In this document: one piece after another, positions 9,222-64,000 of the stretch
How the letters are laid out: the number at the start of each line of letters is the position of its first letter
Position numbering within the stretch: the stretch's first letter is position 1
Program-made: the position numbers and the translations under genes
The notes under the pieces: model-generated
The model's input: only the letters and a program-made list of their open reading frames with translations
What the model was told of the DNA's origin: nothing
Database searches by the model: none
DNA from: Pseudomonas frederiksbergensis
GTDB lineage: Bacteria > Pseudomonadota > Gammaproteobacteria > Pseudomonadales > Pseudomonadaceae
Assembly: GCF_035751725.1 (NCBI RefSeq)
Contig: NZ_CP142104.1
Location: 3,968,001 to 4,032,000, forward strand
Length of the DNA: 64,000 nt
Reading direction: 5' to 3'

Positions 9222-9986
9222 TCAGAGCTTGGCAGGCGTACGCCCCGGCTTCTTGCTCTGCAACAAATGCGAGAACACCGCATGCAAGTCATCCGACGCG
9301 CTTTCTTCGTCGAGGTTGAGCTTGCTGTCGATGTGGTCCATGTGGTGCATCATCAGGTTCACTGCCAAGGCCGCGTCGCGGGCCTCGATGGCGTCGATCA
9401 ATTGGGTGTGTTCGTCATAGGAGCAGTGCGAGCGGTTGCCGCTTTCGTACTGCGCAATGATCAATGAGGTCTGGGACACCAGGCTGCGCTGGAAACTGAT
9501 CAGCGGGGCATTTTTCGCCGCTTCGGCCAGCTTGAGGTGGAATTCGCCCGACAACCGGATGCCGGCGCCACGGTCGCCACGGGAAAAACTGTCGCGCTCG
9601 TCGCTGACCATCTGCCTCAACTCGGCGAGCTGCTCGGCAGTGGCGTGCTGGACCGCCAACTCCGTGATCGCCTTCTCCACCAAGCGCCGGGCGAAGAACA
9701 CCTGGCGAGCTTCCTCGACGCTAGGGCTTGCCACCACTGCACCACGATTGGGCCGCAGCAGCACCACGCCTTCATGGGCCAGGCGTGACAGTGCACGGCG
9801 AATGATGGTGCGGCTGACCCCGAAAATCTCCCCAAGTGCCTCTTCGCTCAATTTGGTACCGGGCGCCAGGCGCTGTTCGAGGATGGCCTCGAAAATGTGC
9901 GCATAGACAATGTCGTCCTGGGTTCCGCTGCGGCCGGCTTTGCCTGCTCGCGGTTGTTTCTTGAGGGGCTGCAACTGTTCGTTCAT
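9222..9986 (-). CDS. GntR-family (FCD) transcriptional regulator of the purine cluster
   Basis: 254 residues from the ATG at 9986; a GTG two codons upstream is an alternative start. The winged helix (about 25-90) contains LGEIFGVSRTIIRRALSRL, followed by an FCD ligand domain with metal-type histidines (SGEFHLKLAEAA, MMHHMDHID). It lies between guaD and the divergently transcribed transporter, so it probably regulates one or both. The N-terminus is rich in Lys/Arg/Pro and probably disordered. The effector is unknown. Confidence 0.88.
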   Translation of the reverse strand: MNEQLQPLKKQPRAGKAGRSGTQDDIVYAHIFEAILEQRLAPGTKLSEEALGEIFGVSRTIIRRALSRLAHEGVVLLRPNRGAVVASPSVEEARQVFFARRLVEKAITELAVQHATAEQLAELRQMVSDERDSFSRGDRGAGIRLSGEFHLKLAEAAKNAPLISFQRSLVSQTSLIIAQYESGNRSHCSYDEHTQLIDAIEARDAALAVNLMMHHMDHIDSKLNLDEESASDDLHAVFSHLLQSKKPGRTPAKL

Positions 9987-10079
9987 GGGCACTCGAGTCG
10001 GGAGAACTGCGGCGATTTAACCGTGACTGTAATACGGCACAGCGGGTCGCTGGCAAGTATCGCGTAAAAAACACGTCGA

Positions 10080-18475: not shown

Positions 18476-18875
18476 GGGATTTCCAGAGCCTTTGGCTAAG
18501 TGGACCGGGCAACGCATTGCCGGGCCGGGTTCAATCAGGTGCTTTTCTCAAGAGCACCCGCGTGGCACGAAAGTGTGCCGTTCCGTACTCGCCGCTCAGG
18601 TTCAAAGAGCTTAGATGCGTGTACAGATAAAAAATTCTGTGCAACAAATTGTGAAAAGTCGTCCCTTTCGTCGAATAATACCCGAGTGCAAAGGGGGGAC
18701 ATTCTCGTTCGATACGGGCAACCGCCTTTCAGCGCAGGGCTGATCATACAGGGGTCTTGCCCGAAAGCGGGTGCCGAACACCTGGTTACTTATCGCACTA
18801 ACATCTTTATTGTTACGTGCTTATGACAAAACGATCATTCCATCCCTGTGACGCTTTGGTTAGAACTCACCACAG
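18476..18875. other. Intergenic region between rlmL and rmf, upstream part
   Basis: About 400 bases with no credible gene on either strand. The only structure seen is a 9-bp hairpin at 18538-18558 (ggtgctttt arm). The promoters of rlmL (minus) and rmf (plus) should lie here; the AT-rich stretch near 18790-18835 is the likeliest promoter zone for rmf, but no confident -35/-10 pair was found. Confidence 0.4.
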
Positions 18876-18969
18876 GTTGACGTCGCAACGGCGTCAACAC
18901 CTTGGCTCGTCACGCCGGCAACGAGCCGCCAACGGCAGAATGATTCTGCCCCGACCTCGATTGAGGTCG
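18876..18969 (+). promoter_or_regulatory. Four tandem hairpins in the rmf upstream leader
   Basis: Four perfect inverted repeats follow one another within 94 bases. The arms are 18876-18882/18892-18898 (GTTGACG), 18904-18910/18921-18927 (GGCTCGT), 18934-18941/18943-18950 (GGCAGAAT) and 18952-18958/18963-18969 (CGACCTC). None is followed by a T run. If transcribed, they form a highly structured 5' leader ending 37 bases before the rmf ATG, with gagg at 18992 as ribosome binding site. This may affect rmf mRNA stability or translation in stationary phase. Confidence 0.6.
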
Positions 18970-19006
18970 ACGCTAAGCAACAGTCAACAAGTGAGGGCAA
19001 CACCCT

Positions 19007-20510: not shown

Positions 20511-20526
20511 TGGCATATGCCTTGCA
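20511..20526 (+). promoter_or_regulatory. Sigma-54 promoter of nasST
   Basis: TGGCATATGCCTTGCA fits the -24/-12 pattern, with GG and GC ten bases apart and a perfect TTGCA -12 element. Initiation would fall near 20537, just ahead of the leader hairpins. TGCACC-N5-GGT overlaps its downstream edge and looks like part of an NtrC site. Confidence 0.7.
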
Positions 20527-20547
20527 CCTTTTTGGTCATCAGCGCCC

Positions 20548-20634
20548 CATGCCAACGACGGAATGTGTGGCGCACTGTTTCAAAGGACAACGGCGTCGGC
20601 GTCCGGCCTCCCTGGCCAGGACACGGCGCTTTTT
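20548..20634 (+). promoter_or_regulatory. ANTAR-type antitermination leader before nasS
   Basis: Hairpin P1 at 20548-20565 is CATGCC, loop AACGAC, GGAATG, with one internal G-A mismatch. P2 at 20586-20597 is GAC, loop AACGGC, GTC. Both loops have six bases with A at 1 and G at 4, the hallmark of ANTAR RNA targets. P2 overlaps the 5' arm of the terminator starting at 20593, so P1/P2 and terminator compete. The P2 stem is only 3 bp, the weakest of the three leaders in this locus. NasT, encoded two genes on, would be autoregulatory. Confidence 0.6.
20593..20634 (+). terminator. Leader terminator before nasS
   Basis: GTCC-GGCC (20601-20608) pairs with GGCC-A-GGAC (20614-20622, one bulge), and outer GCGTC pairs with GGCGC (20625-20629). 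Five T follow. It ends 19 bases before the nasS ATG, so it would attenuate the gene unless disrupted. Confidence 0.65.
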
Positions 20635-20653
20635 CATGTGGAAGGTGATAGCG

Positions 20654-21865
20654 ATGAATGAAATTCCAGCCACGCCCCTGGCCTGGGTCAATGGCAGCGA
20701 TGCCCCGGAAAAAAGCGCGATCAACCTTGGCTTCATGGCCTTGAGCGACTGCGCCCCGGTGGTGGTGGCCGCCACCCAGGGCTTCGCGCAACCTTACGGC
20801 CTGACGTTGAACCTCAAGCGCCAGGCGTCCTGGGCCAACCTGCGGGACAAGCTGGTCAGCGGCGAAATCGACGCAGCCCACAGCCTGTACGGCCTGGTCT
20901 ATGCCGTGCACCTGGGCATCGGTGGCGTTGCAGCCACCGACATGGCAGTGCTGATGGGGCTGAATCAGAACGGCCAGAGCATCAACCTTTCCCACGGCCT
21001 CCAGGCCCAAGGCGTGACCAGTCCTGAGGCACTGGAACGGCACGTGCACCAAACTCGCCCGAAACTGACCTTTGCCCAGACTTTTCCCACCGGCACCCAT
21101 GCCATGTGGCTCTATTACTGGCTCGCCGCCCAGGGCATCCATCCTCTCTCGGATGTCGACAGCGTCGTGGTGCCGCCGCCGCAAATGGTCGCGCACCTGC
21201 AAGCCGGGCGCATCGACGGCTTCTGCGTGGGCGAGCCGTGGTGCGCCAGCGCGGTGAAACAGAACCTCGGCTTTACCCTGGCGACCACCCAGACCATCTG
21301 GCCCGATCATCCGGAAAAAGTCCTCGGGTGTACCCGGGCGTTCGTCGAGCAATACCCCAACACCGCCCGGGCCCTGGTGATGGCGATCCTCGAAGCCAGC
21401 CGCTTCATCGAACAAAGCGAGGAGAACCGTCGCAGCACCGCACAACTGCTGAGTGCGCCCGAATACCTCGACGCCCCGCTGGACTGCATCGAGCCGCGCC
21501 TGCTGGGCATCTATGCCGACGGCTTGGGCAACAGTTGGCAGGATCCCCATGCCATGCGTTTCCACGGGGGCGGCGAGGTGAACCTGCCATACTTGTCCGA
21601 CGGCATGTGGTTCATGACGCAGTTCCGCCGCTGGGGCCTGTTGCGCGAAGACCCGGACTACCCGGCCGTCGCCCGCCAGGTCCAGCAGCTCGACCTGTAC
21701 CGGGAAGCCGCCACGGCGCTGGGCATAGCATCCCCAAGCCAGGACATGCGCAGCAGCCAGCTGATCGACGGCACCATTTGGGACGGCTCGGATCCGGCCG
21801 GGTACGCCCGCAGCTTCAAACTGCACGCCTTGAGCGATGCGGCTCCCCTTCTCGCCAGCCGCTGA
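20654..21865 (+). CDS. nasS: Nitrate-sensing protein NasS (NrtA-like, cytoplasmic)
   Basis: 403 residues. A periplasmic-binding-protein fold of the NrtA/CmpA nitrate/bicarbonate family (INLGFMALSDCAPVVVAATQGFAQ; SWANLRDKLVSGEIDAAH; FPTGTHAMWLYYWLAAQGI), but no signal peptide or lipobox is seen. A soluble binding protein next to an ANTAR gene is the known NasS arrangement, in which NasS binds NasT without nitrate and releases it with nitrate. The ATG at 20654 follows aaggtga; a Met six codons upstream is also possible. nasT begins 14 bases after the stop. Confidence 0.92.
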   Translation: MNEIPATPLAWVNGSDAPEKSAINLGFMALSDCAPVVVAATQGFAQPYGLTLNLKRQASWANLRDKLVSGEIDAAHSLYGLVYAVHLGIGGVAATDMAVLMGLNQNGQSINLSHGLQAQGVTSPEALERHVHQTRPKLTFAQTFPTGTHAMWLYYWLAAQGIHPLSDVDSVVVPPPQMVAHLQAGRIDGFCVGEPWCASAVKQNLGFTLATTQTIWPDHPEKVLGCTRAFVEQYPNTARALVMAILEASRFIEQSEENRRSTAQLLSAPEYLDAPLDCIEPRLLGIYADGLGNSWQDPHAMRFHGGGEVNLPYLSDGMWFMTQFRRWGLLREDPDYPAVARQVQQLDLYREAATALGIASPSQDMRSSQLIDGTIWDGSDPAGYARSFKLHALSDAAPLLASR

Positions 21866-21879
21866 CAGGAGCCACGACC

Positions 21880-22455
21880 ATGCTGCGTATCCTGCTGATC
21901 AACGACACCGCGAAAAAAGTCGGCCGCCTGAAGGCCGCCCTGATTGAAGCCGGCTTCGAAGTAATCGACGAATCCGGCCTGACCATCGACCTGCCGGCGC
22001 GCGTCGAAACAGTGCGTCCGGACGTGATCCTGATCGATACCGAGTCACCCGGACGCGATGTGATGGAGCAAGTAGTGCTGGTCAGTCGCGACCAGCCACG
22101 ACCGATCGTCATGTTTACCGACGAGCACGACCCGGATGTGATGCGCCAGGCCATCAAGTCGGGGGTCAGCGCCTATATCGTCGAAGGCATCCACGCCGCG
22201 CGCCTGCAGCCGATCCTCGACGTGGCCATGGCCCGTTTCGAGAGCGACCAGGCGTTGCGTGCCCAGCTCCTGGCCCGGGACCAGCAACTGGCCGAACGCA
22301 AGCGCATCGAACTGGCCAAGGGCATGCTGATGAAGATGAAGGAATGCAACGAGGAACAGGCCTACACCCTGATGCGCCGCCAGGCGATGAGCCGCCAGCA
22401 GAAGCTGATCCAGGTGGCGGAGCAGATCATCGCGATGAATGAGCTGCTCGGCTGA
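21880..22455 (+). CDS. nasT: ANTAR-domain antiterminator NasT
   Basis: 191 residues. The receiver-like N-terminal domain (about 1-120) keeps an Asp at position 53 (LIDTES). The usual receiver lysine is not evident (SAYIVEG), so it is probably a pseudo-receiver controlled by NasS binding rather than phosphorylation. The C-terminal ANTAR domain (about 138-190; ERKRIELAKGMLMKM, EEQAYTLMRRQAM) binds RNA and prevents termination. Known NasT proteins activate nitrite/nitrate reductase operons this way. Targets are probably the three hexaloop leaders in this window. Confidence 0.94.
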   Translation: MLRILLINDTAKKVGRLKAALIEAGFEVIDESGLTIDLPARVETVRPDVILIDTESPGRDVMEQVVLVSRDQPRPIVMFTDEHDPDVMRQAIKSGVSAYIVEGIHAARLQPILDVAMARFESDQALRAQLLARDQQLAERKRIELAKGMLMKMKECNEEQAYTLMRRQAMSRQQKLIQVAEQIIAMNELLG

Positions 22456-22507
22456 AAGCTTGTAGCACCGGGCCTGCTTGCGAATGGCCTCCCCCGATCT
22501 CGCAGGT

Positions 22508-22523
22508 TGGCACAGATCTCGCT
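22508..22523 (+). promoter_or_regulatory. Sigma-54 promoter of nasA
   Basis: TGGCACAGATCTCGCT has a perfect -24 hexamer and the GC of the -12 element at correct spacing (TCGC in place of TTGC). Initiation would be near 22534, about 4 bases before the P1 hairpin of the leader, so position supports function. Confidence 0.65.
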
Positions 22524-22537
22524 TAAGCAATCCCACA

Positions 22538-22624
22538 GGTAACCAACGGCGGTTGCCCCACCTACGACAAAGACGTCGCACACCCTCCTCGCCTCTCTGG
22601 CGATCCGGGTTGCGGCGTTTTTTT
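22538..22624 (+). promoter_or_regulatory. ANTAR-type antitermination leader before nasA
   Basis: P1 is GGTAACC-AACGGC-GGTTGCC at 22538-22557, a complete 7-bp stem with one G-T pair. After a 7-base linker, P2 is CGAC-AAAGAC-GTCG at 22565-22578. Both hexaloops have A1 and G4. The 3' side of P2 (22573-22578) is also the start of the terminator stem, so stabilising P2 prevents termination. This is the cleanest of the three leaders. Confidence 0.75.
22573..22624 (+). terminator. Leader terminator before nasA
   Basis: ACGTCGCA (22573-22580) pairs with TGCGGCGT (22611-22618), continuing as ACCC/GGGT and TCGCC/GGCGA around loop TCTCT, followed by seven T. It sits 94 bases before the nasA ATG and well after the nasT stop, so it is inside the leader. 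Confidence 0.8.
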
Positions 22625-22718
22625 GTTTTGGTCCTGCGGGACCGGTGGTGCGACCACAGGCGGCGCACTGCTCAAAGCACTGACTCATTTCTCGAGACTT
22701 TTACAGCTGAGGTGCGCG

Positions 22719-23930
22719 ATGAATTCAAGCTTCTGGAAATCCGGCCACACCCCGACACTGTTCGCGGCCTTCCTCTACTTCGACCTGAGTTTCATGGTCT
22801 GGTACCTGCTCGGCCCCCTGGCGGTGCAGATCTCCGCCGACCTGCACCTGACCACCCAGCAACGCGGCCTGATGGTGGCGACGCCGATCCTGGCCGGCGC
22901 CGTGCTGCGTTTGTTCATGGGCCTGCTGGCCGACCGGATCTCGCCAAAGACCGCCGGCATGGTGGGCCAGGTGATCGTCATCGGTGCGCTGTTCTGCGCC
23001 TGGAAACTGGGCATCCACAGCTATGAACAAGCGCTGCTGCTGGGCCTGTTCCTCGGCGTAGCCGGCGCTTCATTCGCCGTGGCCCTGCCGCTGGCCTCCC
23101 AGTGGTATCCGCCGCAACACCAGGGCAAGGCCATGGGCATCGCTGGCGCCGGCAACTCGGGCACCGTGCTCGCGGCGTTGATCGCCCCGGTGATGGCCGT
23201 GGCCTTCGGCTGGAGCAACGTGTTCGGCTTCGCGCTGATCCCGCTGGTGCTGACCCTGGTGCTCTTCGCCTGGTTGGCCAAGAACGCCCCCGAGCGCCCC
23301 AAGGCCAAATCCATGGCCGACTACCTCAAGGCCCTGGGCGACCGTGACAGCTGGTGGTTCATGTTCTTCTACAGCGTGACCTTCGGCGGTTTCATTGGCC
23401 TGGCCAGTGCCCTGCCCGGCTACTTCAACGACCAATATGGCCTGAGCCCGGTCACCGCCGGCTACTACACCGCCGCCTGCGTCTTCGGTGGCAGCCTGAT
23501 GCGCCCACTGGGCGGCGCCCTGGCGGACCGTTTCGGCGGTATCCGCACCTTGCTCGGCATGTACACCGTGGCGGCCGTCTGCATCGCCGCAGTGGGCTTC
23601 AACCTGCCGAGCTCCTACGCGGCACTGGCATTGTTTGTCTGCACCATGCTCGGTTTGGGGGCGGGCAACGGCGCGGTGTTCCAACTGGTGCCACAACGCT
23701 TCCGTCGCGAAATCGGTGTGATGACCGGGCTGATCGGCATGGCCGGCGGCATTGGCGGTTTCGCCCTTGCGGCGGGCATGGGCGCGATCAAGCAGAGCAC
23801 CGGCAGCTATCAACTGGCGCTGTGGTTGTTCGCCAGCCTCGGTGTGCTGGCCTGGTTCGGCCTGCACGGCGTCAAGCGTCGCTGGAGGACCACTTGGGGT
23901 TCGGCCGCTGTCACCGCCGCCCGGGTATAA
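22719..23930 (+). CDS. nasA: Nitrate/nitrite transporter, major facilitator superfamily
   Basis: 403 residues with 12 predicted hydrophobic segments. It resembles NarK/NasA nitrate importers: FDLSFMVWYLLGPLAVQI at the first helix, GLLADRISPKT between helices 2 and 3, and the glycine-rich nitrate signature segments GAGNSGTVLAALIAP and GMAGGIGGFALAAGMG. It should bring nitrate into the cytoplasm for NasC. Start ATG with ctgaggtg upstream. Eight bases separate its stop from the kinase gene. Confidence 0.93.
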   Translation: MNSSFWKSGHTPTLFAAFLYFDLSFMVWYLLGPLAVQISADLHLTTQQRGLMVATPILAGAVLRLFMGLLADRISPKTAGMVGQVIVIGALFCAWKLGIHSYEQALLLGLFLGVAGASFAVALPLASQWYPPQHQGKAMGIAGAGNSGTVLAALIAPVMAVAFGWSNVFGFALIPLVLTLVLFAWLAKNAPERPKAKSMADYLKALGDRDSWWFMFFYSVTFGGFIGLASALPGYFNDQYGLSPVTAGYYTAACVFGGSLMRPLGGALADRFGGIRTLLGMYTVAAVCIAAVGFNLPSSYAALALFVCTMLGLGAGNGAVFQLVPQRFRREIGVMTGLIGMAGGIGGFALAAGMGAIKQSTGSYQLALWLFASLGVLAWFGLHGVKRRWRTTWGSAAVTAARV

Positions 23931-23938
23931 CAGCAACC

Positions 23939-25609
23939 ATGAGCCTGCAATTGAGTTTCGCCGAAGCCAGCGCCATCGGCCCACGGGAGGAAAACCAGGA
24001 CGCCCTGCGCCTGGTCACCCCCGCCCCGGCCCTGGCCGCCAGCAAGGGTTACCTGTTCGCCATCGCCGACGGCGTGAGCCAATGCGCCGATGGCGGGCTG
24101 GCCGCCCGTTCGACTTTGCAGGCATTGGCGCTGGACTACTACGCCACGCCGCAAACCTGGGGCGTGGCCCAGGCGCTCGACCGACTATTGTCCGCGCAGA
24201 ACCGCTGGCTGCAAGCCAACGGTGGCGGGCAACCGCTGCTTACCACCGTCAGCGCCCTTGTACTGCGGGGCCGGCGTTTTACGCTGGCCCACGTCGGCGA
24301 TTGCCGGGTCTACCGCTGGCACGCCGATCACCTGCAACGCGTCAGTGAGGATCACGTCTGGGAGCAGCAAGGCATGCAACATGTGCTCAAGCGCGCCCTG
24401 GGGCTGGATCAGCATCTGGTGCTCGACTTCCTCGACGGCGAACTGCGCGAAGACGAAACCTTCGTGTTGCTCAGTGACGGTGTCTGGGCGGTCCTGGGGG
24501 ACACAGCCATCGCCGGCATCCTTCGCGACCAACCGGACCTGGACCTCGCCGCGCAGACGCTGGTCAACGCCGCGCACCTGGCCGGTAGCCAGGACAACGC
24601 CAGCGCGCTGCTGGTGCGGGTCGATGCGGTGGGCGAAGCCAGCATCGGCGACGCACTGATCCAATTGCAGCAGTGGCCTTTGCCCCCTGCGCTGAAGGCG
24701 GGCCAGACGTTCGAAGGCTGGCAGATCGAAGGTCCACTGGGCCAAAGCCAGCAATCGTTGCTCTATCGAGTACGTGACGGCCAAGGCCAACCCTGGCTAC
24801 TGAAAACCCTGCCCGTGCAGCTACGGGACGACACCCGCGCCGGGCAAGCGCTACTCTCGGAGGAATGGTTTCTCAAGCGGGTCGCGGGCAGGCAATTTCC
24901 CGAAGTGCATGGTGTTCCCCAGCGCCAGCATTTGTACTACGTGATGCGCGAATACCCGGGGGCGACCCTGGCCGAGCTGTTCAACCAGGGCGGGCCGCTG
25001 CCCCTGGCCCAATGGCAGGACCTGGCCCAACGCCTGGTGCGAGCGGTGGGCCTGCTGCATCGACGGCAGATCTACCACCGCGACATCAAGCCGGAAAACC
25101 TGCACCTGGGCGACGATGGCGAATTGCGCTTGCTGGATTTCGGCCTGGCGTATTGCCCGGGCTTGTCCGAGGACCAGGCCAACGTGTTGCCCGGCACGCC
25201 CAGCTACATTGCCCCGGAAGCCTTCGGCGGCACCGCCCCCACGGCACAACAGGATTTGTATGCCGTCGGCGTAACCTTGTATTTCTTGCTGACCGGACAT
25301 TATCCCTACGGCGAGATCGAAGCCTTCCAACGACCGCGCTTCGGCGTGCCGGTCAATGCCAGCCGCTATCGACCGGACCTGGCCGAATGGCTCGGGCAAA
25401 GCCTGGAACGCGCGATCGCGGCGGATCCGGACCAGCGTTTTGAAACCGCCGAGGAATGGCTGTTGCTGCTGGAACAAGGCGAGCGCCGTAGCCTGAGCGT
25501 AAGGCCCCGGCCGTTGCTGGAACGCGAGCCGCTGAAGGTCTGGCGGACATTGGCATTGGTGTCGTTGGTGATAAATCTGGTGATGCTGTTTCTAGTCTTT
25601 CATAGCTAG
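23939..25609 (+). CDS. PP2C phosphatase fused to Ser/Thr protein kinase, membrane anchored
   Basis: 556 residues. The N-terminal PP2C-type phosphatase domain (about 1-235) has metal-binding aspartates in ENQDALRL, FAIADGVS (Asp44), LLSDGVW and GSQDNAS. The eukaryotic-type kinase domain (about 260-515) has YHRDIKPEN (catalytic Asp382), LLDFGLA in place of DFG, and GTPSYIAPEA. The glycine loop is weak (GPLGQSQQSLLYRV), but WLLKTL provides the ATP lysine. A single C-terminal membrane helix (about 532-553) anchors it. It is co-transcribed with nasA, and this gene order is conserved in other pseudomonads. Its substrate is unknown; control of nitrate uptake is a guess from context. Confidence 0.9.
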   Translation: MSLQLSFAEASAIGPREENQDALRLVTPAPALAASKGYLFAIADGVSQCADGGLAARSTLQALALDYYATPQTWGVAQALDRLLSAQNRWLQANGGGQPLLTTVSALVLRGRRFTLAHVGDCRVYRWHADHLQRVSEDHVWEQQGMQHVLKRALGLDQHLVLDFLDGELREDETFVLLSDGVWAVLGDTAIAGILRDQPDLDLAAQTLVNAAHLAGSQDNASALLVRVDAVGEASIGDALIQLQQWPLPPALKAGQTFEGWQIEGPLGQSQQSLLYRVRDGQGQPWLLKTLPVQLRDDTRAGQALLSEEWFLKRVAGRQFPEVHGVPQRQHLYYVMREYPGATLAELFNQGGPLPLAQWQDLAQRLVRAVGLLHRRQIYHRDIKPENLHLGDDGELRLLDFGLAYCPGLSEDQANVLPGTPSYIAPEAFGGTAPTAQQDLYAVGVTLYFLLTGHYPYGEIEAFQRPRFGVPVNASRYRPDLAEWLGQSLERAIAADPDQRFETAEEWLLLLEQGERRSLSVRPRPLLEREPLKVWRTLALVSLVINLVMLFLVFHS

Positions 25610-25762
25610 ACCCAGTTGCTCGCGAAGACGGCGTGCCTGCCTATACCTATCCCCAGCCTGACGCTCCATTACCGGGCAACACGCTTTCATTCGGTGCAAT
25701 AAATCCCCCTTCAACGCCTCCAACCTGCAGCTCAGCCAATAAATCCGCGCCCCAAGAGCACT
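25610..25762. other. Upstream part of the kinase-nirB intergenic region
   Basis: About 150 bases without a credible gene or hairpin. A half-site GGTGCA near 25693 could belong to an NtrC enhancer site, but its partner half is poor. The regulatory elements of nirB follow downstream. Confidence 0.3.
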
Positions 25763-25778
25763 TGGCACAACCACTGCA
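25763..25778 (+). promoter_or_regulatory. Sigma-54 promoter of nirBD-nasC-cobA
   Basis: TGGCACAACCACTGCA has a perfect -24 hexamer and CTGCA for the -12 element, with GG and GC ten bases apart. Initiation would be near 25789, ahead of the leader hairpins that begin at 25806. Confidence 0.7.
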
Positions 25779-25805
25779 TAACCTCTCTCACCATACATAT
25801 AGCAA

Positions 25806-25897
25806 CGCCTCCAACGATGAAGGCGGTGCTTCCCGAGAGAACGGGACCAGGACAAAGGCGTCCTCGCTAGCTTGCTAGCGGGACGCCTTTTTTGTTT
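25806..25897 (+). promoter_or_regulatory. ANTAR-type antitermination leader before nirB, with three hexaloops
   Basis: Hairpin 1 (25806-25825) is CGCCTCC-AACGAT-GAAGGCG with one C-A mismatch. Hairpin 2 (25831-25846) is TCCCG-AGAGAA-CGGGA. Hairpin 3 (25849-25864) is AGGAC-AAAGGC-GTCCT. All three loops have six bases with A1 and G4. Hairpin 3 overlaps the 5' arm of the terminator at 25856, as P2 does in the nasS and nasA leaders. Two hairpins are the known minimum for ANTAR binding, so one is extra. Confidence 0.7.
25856..25897 (+). terminator. Leader terminator before nirB
   Basis: AGGCGTCC (25856-25863) pairs perfectly with GGACGCCT (25881-25888), and inner CGCTAG (25865-25870) pairs with CTAGCG (25875-25880) around CTTG. 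Six T, one G and four more T follow. It is very strong and 66 bases before the nirB ATG. Confidence 0.88.
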
Positions 25898-25962: not shown

Positions 25963-28416
25963 ATGAAAAAACTCAAACTGGTAATGATCGGCAACGGCAT
26001 GGCCGGGGTTCGAACCCTCGAAGAACTGCTCAAGCTGAGCAACGAGCTGTACGACATCACGGTGTTCGGCGCCGAGCCCCACACCAACTACAACCGCATC
26101 CTGCTCTCGCCGGTGCTGGCCGGCGAGCAGACCTTCGAAGAAATCGTGCTCAACGACCTGAGCTGGTACCTGGACAACAACATCAAGCTGTTGCTCAACC
26201 GCAAGGTGGTGGAAATCGACCGGGTCAAGCGCCGGGTCATCGCCGAGGACGGCAGCGAAGCCGAATACGACCGCCTGCTCATCGCCACCGGCTCCACGCC
26301 GTTCATCTTGCCGATCCCCGGCAACACCCTCGATGGCGTGATCGGCTACCGCGACATCGCCGACACCCAGGCGATGATCGACACCGCGAAAACCCATAAA
26401 CACGCGGTGGTCATCGGTGGCGGCCTGTTGGGCCTGGAAGCCGCCAACGGCTTGAAGCTTCGCGGCATGGACGTGACCGTCGTACACATCGGCGAATGGC
26501 TTTTGGAACGGCAGCTGGACAAGACCAGCGGTCAACTGCTGCAAACCGCGCTGGAAAGCCGTGGCCTGAAATTCCGCCTCTGCGAACAGACCCAGGCCCT
26601 GCACGACGCCGGCAATGGCCGGGTCGGCTCGGTCCAGTTCAAGAACGGCGACATCATCCCTGCCGACCTGGTGGTGATGGCCGCCGGTATCCGCCCCAAT
26701 ACCGAACTGGCGGAAAAATCCGGCATCCCGTGCAATCGCGGGATCCTGGTCAACGACACCATGCAAACCTACGACCCACGCATCTATGCCATCGGCGAAT
26801 GCGCCAGCCATCGCGGCACCGCCTACGGCCTGGTGGCGCCGTTGTTCGAACAGGCCAAGGTCTGCGCCAACCACCTCGCGCAACTGGGCTTCGCCACCTA
26901 CAAAGGCTCGGTTACTTCGACCAAATTGAAAGTCACCGGCATCGACCTGTTCTCCGCCGGCGACTTCATGGGCGGCGAAGGCACCGAGACCATCACCCTT
27001 TCCGACCCGATTGGCGGCGTCTATAAAAAACTGGTGATCAAGGATGACGTGCTGGTCGGGGCCTGTCTGTACGGCGATACGGCGGACGGCGGTTGGTATT
27101 TCCGCCAGATTCGTGAGAATCACGCCATCAGCGAGATCCGCGATCACCTCATGTTCGGGGAAAACGCACTGGGTGATGTAGGACACCAGGGCCAGGACAA
27201 AGCCATGAGCATGGCCGACACCGCAGAAGTCTGCGGCTGCAACGGCGTGTGCAAGGGCACCATCGTCAAGGCGATCCAGGAACACGGGCTGTTCAGCGTC
27301 GATGACGTGAAAAAACACACCAAGGCCGCCAGTTCCTGCGGCTCCTGCGCCGGCCTGGTGGAGCAGATCCTGATCAACACCGTGGGCGGCGCAGCAGACG
27401 TCAAGCCGAAAAGCGAAAAAGCCATCTGCGGCTGCAGCGACCTCAACCACGGCCAGATCCGCCAGGCGATCCGCGACCAGCATCTGCTGACCATCGCCGG
27501 GGCCATGAGCTACCTGAACTGGCGCACCCCGAACGGCTGCGCTACCTGCCGCCCCGCCCTGAACTACTACCTGATTTCCACCTGGCCCGGTGAAGCCCAG
27601 GATGATCCGCAGTCGCGCCTGATCAACGAACGCGCCCATGCCAACATCCAGAAAGACGGCACTTACTCGGTGGTCCCGCGGATGTGGGGCGGCGTGACCA
27701 ACCCTTCCGAGCTGCGGCGCATTGCCGACGTGGCGGACAAGTACAACGTGCCGATGGTCAAGGTCACCGGCGGCCAGCGCATCGACCTGTTGGGGATCAA
27801 GAAGCAAGACCTGCCCGGCGTCTGGAAAGACCTCGACATGCCCTCCGGCCACGCCTACGGCAAATCCATCCGCACCGTGAAGACCTGCGTGGGCAGCGAG
27901 TTCTGTCGCTTCGGCACGCAGAACTCCACTCAGTTGGGGATCGAGCTGGAGCACGACCTGTTCAACATGTGGTCCCCGCACAAAGTGAAGCTGGCCGTCT
28001 CCGGTTGCCCCCGCAACTGCTCGGAAGCGGGCATCAAGGACGTTGGCATCATCGGCGTCGATTCCGGCTGGGAGATGTACATCGGCGGCAACGGCGGGAT
28101 CAAGACCGAAGTCGCCGAGTTCTTCGTCAAGCTCAAGACCGCCGAAGAAGTGCGCGAATACAACGGCGCCTTCCTGCAGTTGTACCGGGAAGAAGCCTTC
28201 TACCTCGAACGCACCGTGCACTACATGCAGCGGGTCGGCATGGAGCACATCAAGAAAGCCGTGCTGGAAGACCCGGAGCGGCGCAAAGCGCTCCATGAGC
28301 GGCTGAAGTTTTCCCTGTCGCTGGAACAAGACCCTTGGAAACAGCGCCTGGAGCAACCCCAGCTGAAGAAAGAATTTGAAGTCATTCCCGTGAAGCACCT
28401 GGAGGTGCCGGCATGA
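25963..28416 (+). CDS. nirB: Assimilatory NADH-nitrite reductase, large subunit
   Basis: 817 residues. It reduces nitrite to ammonia with NADH in the cytoplasm. The N-terminal FAD/NAD module has GNGMAGVRTLEELL and VVIGGGLLGLEAANGL (about 7-300). BFD-type [2Fe-2S] cysteines follow (CGCNGVCKG, SSCGSCAGLVEQ; about 420-480). The C-terminal sulfite/nitrite reductase halves carry the siroheme/4Fe-4S motif TCVGSEFCRFGTQ and SGCPRNCSEAGIKD. The ATG at 25963 with cggagaac upstream is preferred over a TTG five codons earlier. The stop overlaps nirD by four bases (ATGA). Confidence 0.96.
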   Translation: MKKLKLVMIGNGMAGVRTLEELLKLSNELYDITVFGAEPHTNYNRILLSPVLAGEQTFEEIVLNDLSWYLDNNIKLLLNRKVVEIDRVKRRVIAEDGSEAEYDRLLIATGSTPFILPIPGNTLDGVIGYRDIADTQAMIDTAKTHKHAVVIGGGLLGLEAANGLKLRGMDVTVVHIGEWLLERQLDKTSGQLLQTALESRGLKFRLCEQTQALHDAGNGRVGSVQFKNGDIIPADLVVMAAGIRPNTELAEKSGIPCNRGILVNDTMQTYDPRIYAIGECASHRGTAYGLVAPLFEQAKVCANHLAQLGFATYKGSVTSTKLKVTGIDLFSAGDFMGGEGTETITLSDPIGGVYKKLVIKDDVLVGACLYGDTADGGWYFRQIRENHAISEIRDHLMFGENALGDVGHQGQDKAMSMADTAEVCGCNGVCKGTIVKAIQEHGLFSVDDVKKHTKAASSCGSCAGLVEQILINTVGGAADVKPKSEKAICGCSDLNHGQIRQAIRDQHLLTIAGAMSYLNWRTPNGCATCRPALNYYLISTWPGEAQDDPQSRLINERAHANIQKDGTYSVVPRMWGGVTNPSELRRIADVADKYNVPMVKVTGGQRIDLLGIKKQDLPGVWKDLDMPSGHAYGKSIRTVKTCVGSEFCRFGTQNSTQLGIELEHDLFNMWSPHKVKLAVSGCPRNCSEAGIKDVGIIGVDSGWEMYIGGNGGIKTEVAEFFVKLKTAEEVREYNGAFLQLYREEAFYLERTVHYMQRVGMEHIKKAVLEDPERRKALHERLKFSLSLEQDPWKQRLEQPQLKKEFEVIPVKHLEVPA

Positions 28417-61000: not shown

Positions 61001-64000
61001 GGTCACGCCAAACTGCTCGACCAATTGGGCAATGCGGTGCGGATCCCGGTGTTCGCCCGGGCCGGCCAGGACCAAGCGGCTGCCAGTGATCAACGGCCAG
61101 AAGCATTCCCACACCGACACGTCGAAACTGATCGGCGCCTTTTGCATCAACACGTCGGTTTCATCCAGCCCATAGGTGGCCTGCATCCATTGCAGGCGCT
61201 CAGCCAGGGCCGCGTGAGTATTGCCAACGCCCTTGGGTTGGCCGGTCGAGCCGGAGGTGTAGATCACGTAGGCCAGATGATCGCCATGCAAGTGCAGCCC
61301 CGGCGGATTGCTCGGCCACTGCTCCAGGTGCAGCGCGTCCATGGCGATGACGCTGACGCCCTCGCAGGTCGGCAAGCGTTCGAGCAGCGCGGTTTGGGTC
61401 AGGAGCAGATCGACGCCGCTGTCGTGGAGCATGTAGGCCAGGCGCTCGCTCGGGTAATCGACATCCAGCGGCACGTAGGCGCCGCCGGCCTTGATGATCG
61501 CCAGCACGCCGACGAGCAATTGCGCCGACCGCTCGGCGGCAATCGCCACGCAGACGTCGGGGCCGACGCCTTTGTCTCGAAGATAATGGGCCAGCCGATT
61601 GGCCTGGGCGTGCAGTTCGGCGTAGTCCAGTGAACCACCGTCCCACTGCAATGCAGTGCGTTGCGGAGTGCGGCGGGCCTGTTCGTTGAGCAGTTCCGGT
61701 AGCCATTGTGTGGCGGGCGCGCAGGGTGCCGTCGCCCAGCGCTGCTGCTGGACGAGTTCTTCGGCACTCAACAACGGCAGGTCGCCGAGGGCCTGTCGGG
61801 GATCAGCGCAGACCGCTCGCAGCACGCTGCAGAAATGTTCGGCCAGGCGTGCGACGGTTGCCGCCTCGAACAGCTCGTCCGCGTAGTCGAACGACAGTGT
61901 CAGCTGGCCGTTACGGTCTTCCTCGCTGTGCAATTGCAGGTCGAACTTGGCTTCGCGGCTGTGCCATGGCAATTCATCGGCCAACAGCCCGGGCAGGCGC
62001 CGCAACGCGCCGAGGTCGCGCTGCTGGTGGTTGAACATCACCTGGAACAGACCTTGTTCGCGGGCCTGGGGGAAGACTTCCAGCAGCTGTTCGAAGGGCA
62101 GGTCCTGATGGGCCTGGGCGCCGAGCGTCGCCTCCCGGGCCTGGGCCAGCAACGCGACGAATGGCTGGCGCGAATCGACTTGTGCGCGCAGTACCTGGGT
62201 GTTGATGAAAAAGCCGATCAGCCCTTGGGTTTCCAGGCGCGGGCGGTTGGCGTTGGGCACGCCGATGCGCAGGTCGGATTGGCCAGTGTAGCGCTGCAAC
62301 AAGGCCTGGAACGCCGCCAGCAACAGCATGAACACCGTGGCGTCATGGGCGTGGGCGACCTGGCGCAGGGCATCGCCTAGCGGCTTGTCCAGGCGCAGGG
62401 TATGGCGCGCCGCGCTGCGATGCTGCTGGGCGCTGCGCGGATGGTCGGTAAACAACGCCAGGGGCGGGTGCTCGTCGCCCAATTGCTTTTTCCAATACGC
62501 CAATTGGCGCTCGGCTTCGCCCTGGGCGAGCCATTGCCGCTGCCAACTGCCGTAGTCCGCGTATTGCAGCGGCAACGGCGGCAGTTCGGCGACCTGCCCT
62601 TGGGACGCTGCGGCGTACAGCCGCGAAAACTCATCGATCAAGACATTCATCGACCAGCCATCGGCGATGATGTGATGCATCGTCACCAACAGCTGGTGAT
62701 CGTCTTCAGCCAGGCGCAACAAAGTGACCCGCAGCAGCGGCCCGTTTTCCAGATCGAATCGAGTGGCCGCCTCGTCTTCGCGGATCTGCCGCGCCCGCGC
62801 CTCGCGCTGGTCGGCGGGCACATCGCCGAGGTCGATCACCTGGAGATTGAACTCACCGGCCGGATCGATCTGTTGCAGGGCCACGCCATCGCGTTCCAGG
62901 AAGCGCGTGCGCAAGGATTCGTGGCGCTCGACCAATTGCTGGAAGCTGACGCGCAACGCTGCTTCGTCCAGCTCGCCACGCAGGCGCAGGGCGCCGGGGA
63001 TGTTGTAGGCGCGACTGGCAGGATCCAGCTGCCAAGTCAGCCACAAACGGTTCTGGGCCAGGGATTGCGGCAGGGCTTCATCGCGGGCCATTGAATTGAT
63101 AACCCCCTGGGCCTGGCCGCCGTCCTGTTGCAGGTTCGCCACCGCCATCGCGAAAGCACCCAGGGTCGGCGCTTCAAAAAGCAGGCGCAGGTTGAGCTCC
63201 ATACCCAGCACTTCACGCAGCCGTGCAATGACTTGGGTGGCTGCGATGGAATTGCCACCCAGCAGGAAAAAATGGTCATTGCCCTGCACCCGATCGATCT
63301 GCAACTGCTCGCACCAGAGACGGCCGATCAGGTCTTGCAGCTCGGATGACGGCGCGGATTCGTCGACCGTCTCAGTCTTGGGCGAAGGAAACAGTGCATA
63401 GCGGTCGAGGCTGCCATCCGCCAATCGGGCGCGGCACGCCGAACGCTGCAGTTTGCCGCTGGACGTCTTCGGCAGCGCCCCAGGATTGAGCAGCACCACC
63501 ACGCTAGGCGCTTGCTGGCAGGCGTCGGCCACGGCTTGGCGAATCGCGTTGATCAGGGCTTCGGGAGGCAGGATCTTCTGCACGCTGCGGCTGATCTCAG
63601 CGGCAATGCCGATGCCTTCCTCACCCGCCTCGTTGACGGCGAAGGCGGCAACCCGCCCTTTACGCACCACCTCCACTTCCCGCTCGATGGTTTGCTCGAT
63701 GTCCTGCGGGTAAAGGTTTTGCCCGCGCACGATCAACATGTCCTTCAAGCGTCCGGTGATGAACAGCTCACCTTCGCGGACAAAACCCAGGTCGCCGGTG
63801 CGCAGCCACGTGCGGCCGTCATGCTCGACGAAGGTCTTGGCGCTGGCCTCGGGGTTGCGCCAGTAACCGCGGGCGATGCTCGGCCCGGCGGCCCAGACTT
63901 CGCCAACCTGGCTGTCGCTGAGCGGTTGCAGGGTGTTGGGCTCGACGATCAGCACCGCATGGCCCGGCTGGCTGACACCACAGCTCATCACCGCACTGCC
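52094..64000 (-). CDS. pvdL: Pyoverdine chromophore peptide synthetase PvdL (5' end outside window)
   Basis: At least 3,968 residues; the frame is open to base 64000. PvdL starts pyoverdine by loading an acyl group, then Glu, D-Tyr and Dab. Domains in order (residues counted from base 64000): end of an acyl-CoA ligase; carrier (GGNS, Ser251); C1 (HHIIADGW, about 440); A1 ([11 protein letters not shown], about 915); carrier (Ser1306); C2 (about 1501); A2 (about 1978); carrier (Ser2377); epimerase ([10 protein letters not shown], about 2554); C3 of the post-epimerase type ([15 protein letters not shown], about 2886); A3 (about 3511); carrier (Ser3906). No thioesterase is present, so the chain passes to another synthetase. 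The A3 pocket reads D-I-W-E-L-T-A-D-D, a Dab-type code. A1 reads D-V-W-H-F-G-R-I-N and A2 D-A-E-G-I-G-A-V-M; their Glu and Tyr assignments rest on known PvdL order. Confidence 0.95.

Follow-up and report, generated by a model that had tools for sequence, protein, structure and literature searches.

We found that the nasST, narK and nirB operons of a Pseudomonas genome share a common 5' layout, in which a sigma-54 -24/-12 element is followed by hairpins with A1/G4 hexaloops and then by an intrinsic terminator. We consider it very probable that these leaders are attenuators controlled by NasT, the ANTAR-domain product of the first operon, and that they lie behind sigma-54 promoters, with read-through gated by nitrate and nasST itself held in a positive loop. 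Two of the leaders, P11 and the narK RNA, are already catalogued; what is added here is the leader of nasST, a third hexaloop in the nirB leader and the exclusivity of the set under the searches made. P11, the narK RNA and the uncatalogued nasST leader are thereby joined into one likely NasT regulon, which includes the regulator.

Layout of the three leaders

The window, namely the whole stretch of 64,000 nucleotides that was analysed, belongs to a Pseudomonas genome of 6.0 Mb in one contig (99.99% complete), whose closest named relative, as found by NasS identity, is P. thivervalensis (96%). The genes of the locus are arranged in the order nasS-nasT, narK, a PP2C-kinase fusion, nirB and a nasC-type nitrate reductase, with the following features:

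20511..20525, + strand: sigma-54 -24/-12 element of nasST, TGGCATATGCCTTGC; predicted +1 near 20537
20542..20573, + strand: nasST hairpin 1 (P1), outer GCGCC/GGCGC, inner CAT-g-CC AACGAC GG-a-ATG, hexaloop AACGAC
20586..20597, + strand: nasST hairpin 2 (P2), GAC-AACGGC-GTC
20592..20634, + strand: nasST intrinsic terminator, its 5' arm overlapping P2 bases
20654..21865, + strand: nasS, nitrate/nitrite sensor of the NMT1_2 family
21880..22455, + strand: nasT, with a receiver-like and an ANTAR domain; no other ANTAR match in the genome
22508..22522, + strand: sigma-54 -24/-12 element of narK, TGGCACAGATCTCGC; predicted +1 near 22534; overlaps the Rfam narK RNA match at 22509-22579
22538..22557, + strand: narK P1, GGTAACC-AACGGC-GGTTGCC
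22565..22578, + strand: narK P2, CGAC-AAAGAC-GTCG
22572..22624, + strand: narK intrinsic terminator, its 5' arm overlapping P2 bases
22719..23930, + strand: narK-type MFS transporter gene, the nasA of the earlier note
25763..25777, + strand: sigma-54 -24/-12 element of nirB, TGGCACAACCACTGC; predicted +1 near 25789; within the Rfam P11 match at 25751-25887
25801..25830, + strand: nirB hairpin 1, CC-AACGAT-G, hexaloop AACGAT (consensus of relatives AACGAC), with a C.A mismatch after one pair here
25831..25846, + strand: nirB middle hairpin, TCCCG-AGAGAA-CGGGA, the third A1/G4 hexaloop
25850..25863, + strand: nirB hairpin 3, GGAC-AAAGGC-GTCC
25854..25893, + strand: nirB intrinsic terminator, its 5' arm overlapping hairpin 3 bases
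25963..28416, + strand: nirB, assimilatory nitrite reductase large subunit

The earlier note, made from the letters alone, had seen the same order of promoter, hairpins and terminator before nasS, nasA (narK) and nirB, and both reading and computation bear this out. The -24 element with a properly spaced -12 GC that it reported at the three operons is there and is kept in aligned relatives; the last hairpins of nasS, narK and nirB do agree as GAC-AAnGnC-GTC; and coordinates and folds confirm that the terminator 5' arm overlaps the last hairpin in all three. Its count of two A1/G4 hexaloop hairpins per leader holds for nasS and narK but not for nirB, which has three conserved ones, and in this genome neither nasS nor nirB has an unbroken first stem, that of the nasST P1 being interrupted by a G.A mismatch after two pairs. 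A strict scan for 3-bp stems does not report the first hairpins of nasS and nirB in the register given by that note, and another scan of the same strictness missed many leaders because first hairpins with interrupted stems fail it. The note also passes over the fact that two of the three leaders are catalogued. The spacers between the hairpins measure 12 nt in nasS, 7 nt in narK and, from middle to last hairpin, 3 nt in nirB, the range described in passages on the Enterococcus faecalis eut leaders being about 5-12 nt (PMC3369931).

The terminators are predicted to fold at -26.2 (nasST), -31.4 (narK) and -27.3 kcal/mol (nirB), as against -2.4 kcal/mol for the isolated P2 of nasST. With terminators at -26 to -31 kcal/mol, termination would be the default and a protein would have to hold P2 open.

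The narK leader is a full-length match to the Rfam narK RNA (RF03032; 83 bits, gathering cut-off 43.2), the model of which already includes the promoter element and both hexaloop sequences; it pairs the first hairpin only, whereas the leader here has two. Among the matches listed, we found no paper linking the narK RNA to ANTAR. The nirB leader is a full-length match to Rfam P11 (RF00625; 123.8 bits, gathering cut-off 70). As this family is named Pseudomonas sRNA P11, and Caenorhabditis elegans reportedly senses the P11 of P. aeruginosa PA14 as a small RNA (PMC12080996), the leaders might mainly be sources of small RNAs, the terminated RNA being the product and read-through secondary. We regard this as very improbable: what is conserved is the make-up of an ANTAR attenuator, found in many species immediately in front of nas genes, and in the passages available the same paper itself describes P11 as regulating the nirB-nirD-nasC operon. 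Worm studies of inherited pathogen avoidance concern this P11 family, and control of the nirB leader by NasT would therefore affect the timing of the short transcript.

Recurrence, covariation and exclusivity

Sigma-54 elements occur in the window at chance level (4 observed, 3.3 expected), so that it is their placement that carries the weight; at related nasS loci, 75 of 80 have one within 260 nt upstream. Among 5000 dinucleotide-shuffled versions of each leader, 123 (nasS), 36 (narK) and 153 (nirB), or 0.7-3.1%, contained two distinct A1/G4 hexaloop hairpins with at least 3 bp of stem, which makes each leader alone weak to moderate evidence. These two figures are what would favour a reading of the leaders as chance hairpins in GC-rich DNA next to ordinary terminators. 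Against them stand the recurrence of the composite, its exclusivity within the genome, the excess of the hairpin motif and, already contradicting that reading, the covariation of the stems; we give it next to no credence.

The motif GACAANGNCGTC occurs five times in the window against an expectation of 0.24, and none of 100 shuffles reached as many; the two sites beyond the leaders lie at 9906 (+) and at 61565 (-), the latter in a coding sequence that looks NRPS-like by eye. When promoter, last hairpin and T-run were sought as one composite on both strands of 80 related loci (1.56 Mb), 129 matches emerged, every one of them on the nasS strand; three equally large third-order Markov sets contained none. 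As the hairpin pattern came from the window, this tests recurrence elsewhere, in loci related by descent. Sorted by position rather than annotation, the 132 sites, with the three of the window included, comprise 58 before nasS, 23 before narK, 43 before nirB and 8 others.

For nasS, 52 of the 58 leaders were aligned, the six left out being L018, L025, L033, L041 and L048, which closely resemble others, and L052, in which an insertion splits the terminator. The P1 helix shows double changes at eight of its nine pairs, and P1 and P2 together reach a covariation score of 0.316 as against 0.041-0.086 for slid versions, a value matched in none of 500 shuffles. The P2 stem is invariant in all 52 rows and 97.8% of the cells of the terminator arm are paired, while pair 3 of P1 forms in only 22 of the 52 rows, the window being one of the rows, and is unpaired in 30. 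The nirB-type alignment has 45 rows (the 43 sites plus L078 and L079); hairpin 1 and its basal helix covary, with double changes at six pairs, and the hairpin-1 pair mismatched here (C.A) is formed in 43 of the 45 rows, again counting the window. The middle and last hairpins of nirB hardly vary, so covariation is uninformative for both; in the middle loop, positions 2 and 6 vary while A1 and G4 are present in all 45 rows, the pattern that would be expected if an ANTAR protein read it. All 23 narK sites were aligned and are nearly invariant in sequence, and so offer no covariation test. Conservation of loops and stems in related Pseudomonas, the absence of which would have refuted the proposal according to the earlier note, is thus present as retained A1 and G4 and as covarying first stems in nasS and nirB.

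Across the genome, a promoter-plus-hairpin pattern found 16 sites, the three leaders among them, as against 6 for a reversed control. Only the three leaders combine a second hexaloop with a T-run (none of the other 13 does): the 13 all lack the T-run and all but one (L190) lack the second hexaloop. A hairpin-plus-terminator pattern, whose permitted gap lengths do not admit nirB, returned just nasS and narK. A search with R1, a model built on nasS leaders of the genus that also detects narK leaders and may miss distant ones, gave nasS (5e-16), narK (8e-9) and then a match at E 0.29; nirB is not listed because its extra hairpin does not fit the model. The match at 0.29, a partial one at 61522-61577 on the minus strand of the window, was considered as a fourth target and rejected, as it lies within the NRPS-like (by eye) coding sequence. 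By these searches, which would miss a differing hairpin sequence, the three leaders are the sole sites with all parts in the 6.0 Mb genome.

NasT and the history of the nasST leader

NasT, which was said to be an ANTAR protein, does combine a receiver-like domain with an ANTAR domain and is the sole PF03861 match in this genome; among 36 Pseudomonas genomes, 31 have one such match, four have two and one has none. In 199 Pseudomonas genomes, an R1 match is present in 0 of 18 that lack an ANTAR protein and in 176 of 181 that bear one (Fisher p 2e-21), two of the 18 and one other negative having been placed by exclusion; the remaining five have an ANTAR protein without an R1 match. The open-frame length of the ANTAR matches cannot separate NasT from other ANTAR proteins (the NasT of this genome, of 191 aa, shows 475). 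As R1 also detects narK leaders, and loss of the whole nas cluster fits equally, we take this co-occurrence as linkage rather than proof of binding; part or all of it could stem from leader and protein having been lost together with that cluster. The covariation in nasS and nirB, the retained A1 and G4, the single ANTAR protein and the co-occurrence together support the proposal of ANTAR-type attenuators at the three operons.

The nasST leader falls below the Rfam cut-offs for all families (P11 17.3 bits, narK RNA 18.2 bits), and in the titles, starts of abstracts and passages covered we found no description of an attenuator before a Pseudomonas nasST, though subscription papers and supplements, among them the hit tables of PMC3369931, lie outside that coverage and may hold a mention. 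Such a leader on the regulator's own operon seems to be undescribed. We read it as a likely autoregulatory ANTAR target. Alternatively, NasT might act on narK and nirB only, and the nasST leader might be a relic, or else a partial terminator that works constitutively and keeps nasST low. That the leader is absent from 18 of 81 nasS loci, and hence dispensable, belongs to no Rfam family at threshold and has an interrupted first stem in this genome would suit such a role, but in a relic one would not expect the compensatory changes, the unvarying P2 stem and the A1/G4 loops to be retained throughout the genus, nor the leader to recur in another genus of the family; we deem this alternative unlikely.

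The distribution favours an old element that was repeatedly dropped. The nasST attenuator, scored as hairpin 2 plus T-run, is present in 63 of 81 nasS loci (80 relatives and the window) and lacking in 18, with L052 (interrupted terminator) scored as present and L042, a degraded copy by eye, as absent; the relatives are the 80 best of 593, so these frequencies are not those of the genus. The sigma-54 element is kept in 15 of the 18 loci without attenuator, and the narK RNA in all seven of them that were tested (L023, L035, L049, L064, L065, L074, L078). On the NasS tree, the root of which serves drawing only, presence and absence require 7 changes, at least 6 of them on well-supported branches; this count is silent on gain versus loss, and loss is the simplest reading since the copies share place and sequence. 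In another genus of the family, three genomes (L207, L210, L223; in L223 the P2 loop begins with G, not A) also have R1 matches before nasS, and the element is therefore probably old. In the order, R1 matches occur in 20 of 293 genomes, seven of them outside the family; in those seven loci no close NasS was seen downstream of the match (L216 was read off position), and L216, L218 and L220 show proteins of 32-37% identity to NasS that may be NrtA-type.

Within Pseudomonas, 25 of the 199 genomes have three or four R1 matches, and ten of the 25 were examined. These additional sites precede nasC-type genes (L135, L140, L142, L145; 45-47% identity), genes read as encoding NrtA-type binding proteins (L141, L143, L147), a porin-like gene (Alginate_exp, below cut-off) followed by a PilJ-domain gene (L146/L150), and a methyl-accepting chemotaxis gene (L144/L149). 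A 215-aa partner of the chemotaxis gene has a match in 22 of the 199 genomes, with the MCP adjoining in six within the flanks examined; the leader precedes the MCP in three of these six (L149, L177, L181) and was not found before it in L178-L180. A NIT domain, which we had guessed for the 215-aa partner, was rejected, as Pfam finds none.

With moderate confidence, we favour a broader reading of NasST as an autocatalytic nitrate switch, in which the antiterminator would act on the leader of the operon that encodes it: the loop would be ancestral in the family and would have been dropped six or more times, mostly with the sigma-54 promoter kept and the narK attenuators persisting, while the NasT regulon would have been extended to genes for behaviour towards nitrate, such as a chemoreceptor in one lineage, and nirB would use a three-hairpin ANTAR target. 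If so, the same circuit exists naturally in the genus both with positive feedback and without it, and the repeated absence of the regulator's attenuator alone, in the sampled putida-type species as against the fluorescens-type species that bear it, would allow the contribution of that feedback to be compared.

Proposed circuit and known systems

In the circuit that we propose, a sigma-54 activator, most likely NtrC, would initiate transcription under nitrogen limitation. Without nitrate, NasS would hold NasT, the terminator would form and polymerase would stop about 90-105 nt past the predicted start; with nitrate, the freed NasT would bind the A1/G4 hexaloop hairpins and stabilise the last of them and, as this hairpin shares bases with the 5' arm of the terminator, read-through would follow. 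Because nasST stands behind its own attenuator, NasT would raise the synthesis of both NasT and NasS in a nitrate-gated positive loop, the sign of which we infer and which leaky read-through would start. The genes amiR and eutVW are likewise part of operons under the control of their own products, and the principle of an autogenous loop is therefore not novel.

Scored with an NtrC consensus in the regions upstream of 124 promoters (58 nasS, 23 narK and 43 nirB, the window included), the best NtrC box has a mean score of 14.2 at nasS, 12.9 at narK and 15.3 at nirB, against 13.5 in controls, and the 95th percentile of the control is reached by 19%, 4% and 40% of these promoters, respectively. 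A CGCNTTGANNCGGTGCA-like site recurs at nirB about 71-82 nt upstream of the -24 element, while with the same consensus no clear box was found in the 58 nasS promoters (slightly above control) or the 23 narK promoters (not above it), which suggests a box at nirB only among the three classes. At nasS and narK, an NtrC input is suggested by the sigma-54 element and by the P. stutzeri A1501 ntrC mutant, in which, according to the passages available, nasS, nasT and nasA transcripts are reduced (PMC8443478).

For nirB, the two-input circuit that the earlier note put forward turns out to be published: passages of a review and of a second paper describe sigma-54- and NtrC-dependent initiation of nirBD with NasT-dependent read-through on NalA (PMC12830290; PMC3973561). 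We infer from position that P11 and NalA are one leader; none of the papers listed used both names. This P. aeruginosa nirBD leader, with a homologue in P. protegens Cab57, agrees with the nirB leader here in promoter type, terminator and downstream gene, and nothing essential differs, the three A1/G4 hexaloops being unmentioned in the passages on NalA. At the P. protegens homologue, the sigma-54 boxes were reported as found and the NtrC palindrome as not (PMC3973561, in part).

The 3-nt spacer between the middle and last hairpins of nirB counts against our best explanation; on eutP, a 3-nt spacer is reported to have strongly cut EutV-dependent induction (PMC3369931, in part).

The nearest parallel for sensing is the Paracoccus NasTS system, in which, so far as the passages go, nitrate dissociates NasS-NasT and NasT then binds the nasA leader RNA (PMC3795266); the NasS-NasT pair and the contact of NasT with leader RNA, predicted in our case, are alike (PMC3795266, PMC5424462). 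There, however, hairpins are described before nasA with none mentioned before nasT in those passages, which speak of an NtrC site and a G-quadruplex there, and nasTS expression is very low in all nitrogen sources (PMC3795266, PMC5424462). In terms of RNA architecture, the leaders resemble the ANTAR dual-hairpin RNAs of EutV, NasR/nasF and AmiR, which, as described in the passages available, have two A1/G4 hexaloop hairpins, the last overlapping the terminator (PMC3369931). They differ from these in that here an operon of sensor and regulator alone bears its own element and in that the nirB leader has three hexaloop hairpins.

The gene downstream of narK

The leader before narK, in which a sigma-54 element is followed by A1/G4 hexaloop hairpins and an intrinsic terminator, probably also governs the next gene, a PP2C phosphatase-kinase fusion, since the start of the latter lies only 9 bases past the narK stop. 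Two further matches were recorded elsewhere in the window.

Window 23939-25609: PP2C phosphatase-kinase fusion gene
Window 18856-18988, + strand: Rfam rmf RNA (RF01755) match, 111.6 bits
Window 9906-9917, + strand: hairpin-like match to GACAATGTCGTC, a further one that lies outside the nas region

Variant nasS leaders in relatives

The attenuator is absent from the nasS locus of P. psychrophila (L023), where the promoter begins 52 bases 5' of the start codon; phage elements are also present there, with a C4 antisense RNA and the target of that RNA located some 0.9-1.1 kb 5' of nasS. In P. caricapapayae an insertion of over 100 bases in the nasS leader (L052, about 9750-9990) separates hairpin 2, the last hexaloop hairpin, from the 3' arm of the terminator.

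L023 8924-9111, - strand: C4 antisense RNA and its target

Leaders before other genes

Leaders combining sigma-54, double-hexaloop and terminator elements were also found at four further loci from related genomes.

L149 (contig G083:C111), from 4797 and from 6986, reverse strand: two leaders
L177, from 1378: leader
L181, from 1710, reverse strand: leader
L150 (contig G118:C5), from 3149: leader

In L150 the leader precedes a porin-like gene with a below-cut-off match to Alginate_exp, which is followed by a PilJ-domain protein. The second leader in L149 stands before an nrtA-type gene. In L149, L177 and L181 such a leader lies 5' of a methyl-accepting chemotaxis gene, which is paired with a partner of 215 aa. 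This arrangement suggests that NasT, the proposed reader of these hairpins, may control a chemoreceptor in one lineage.
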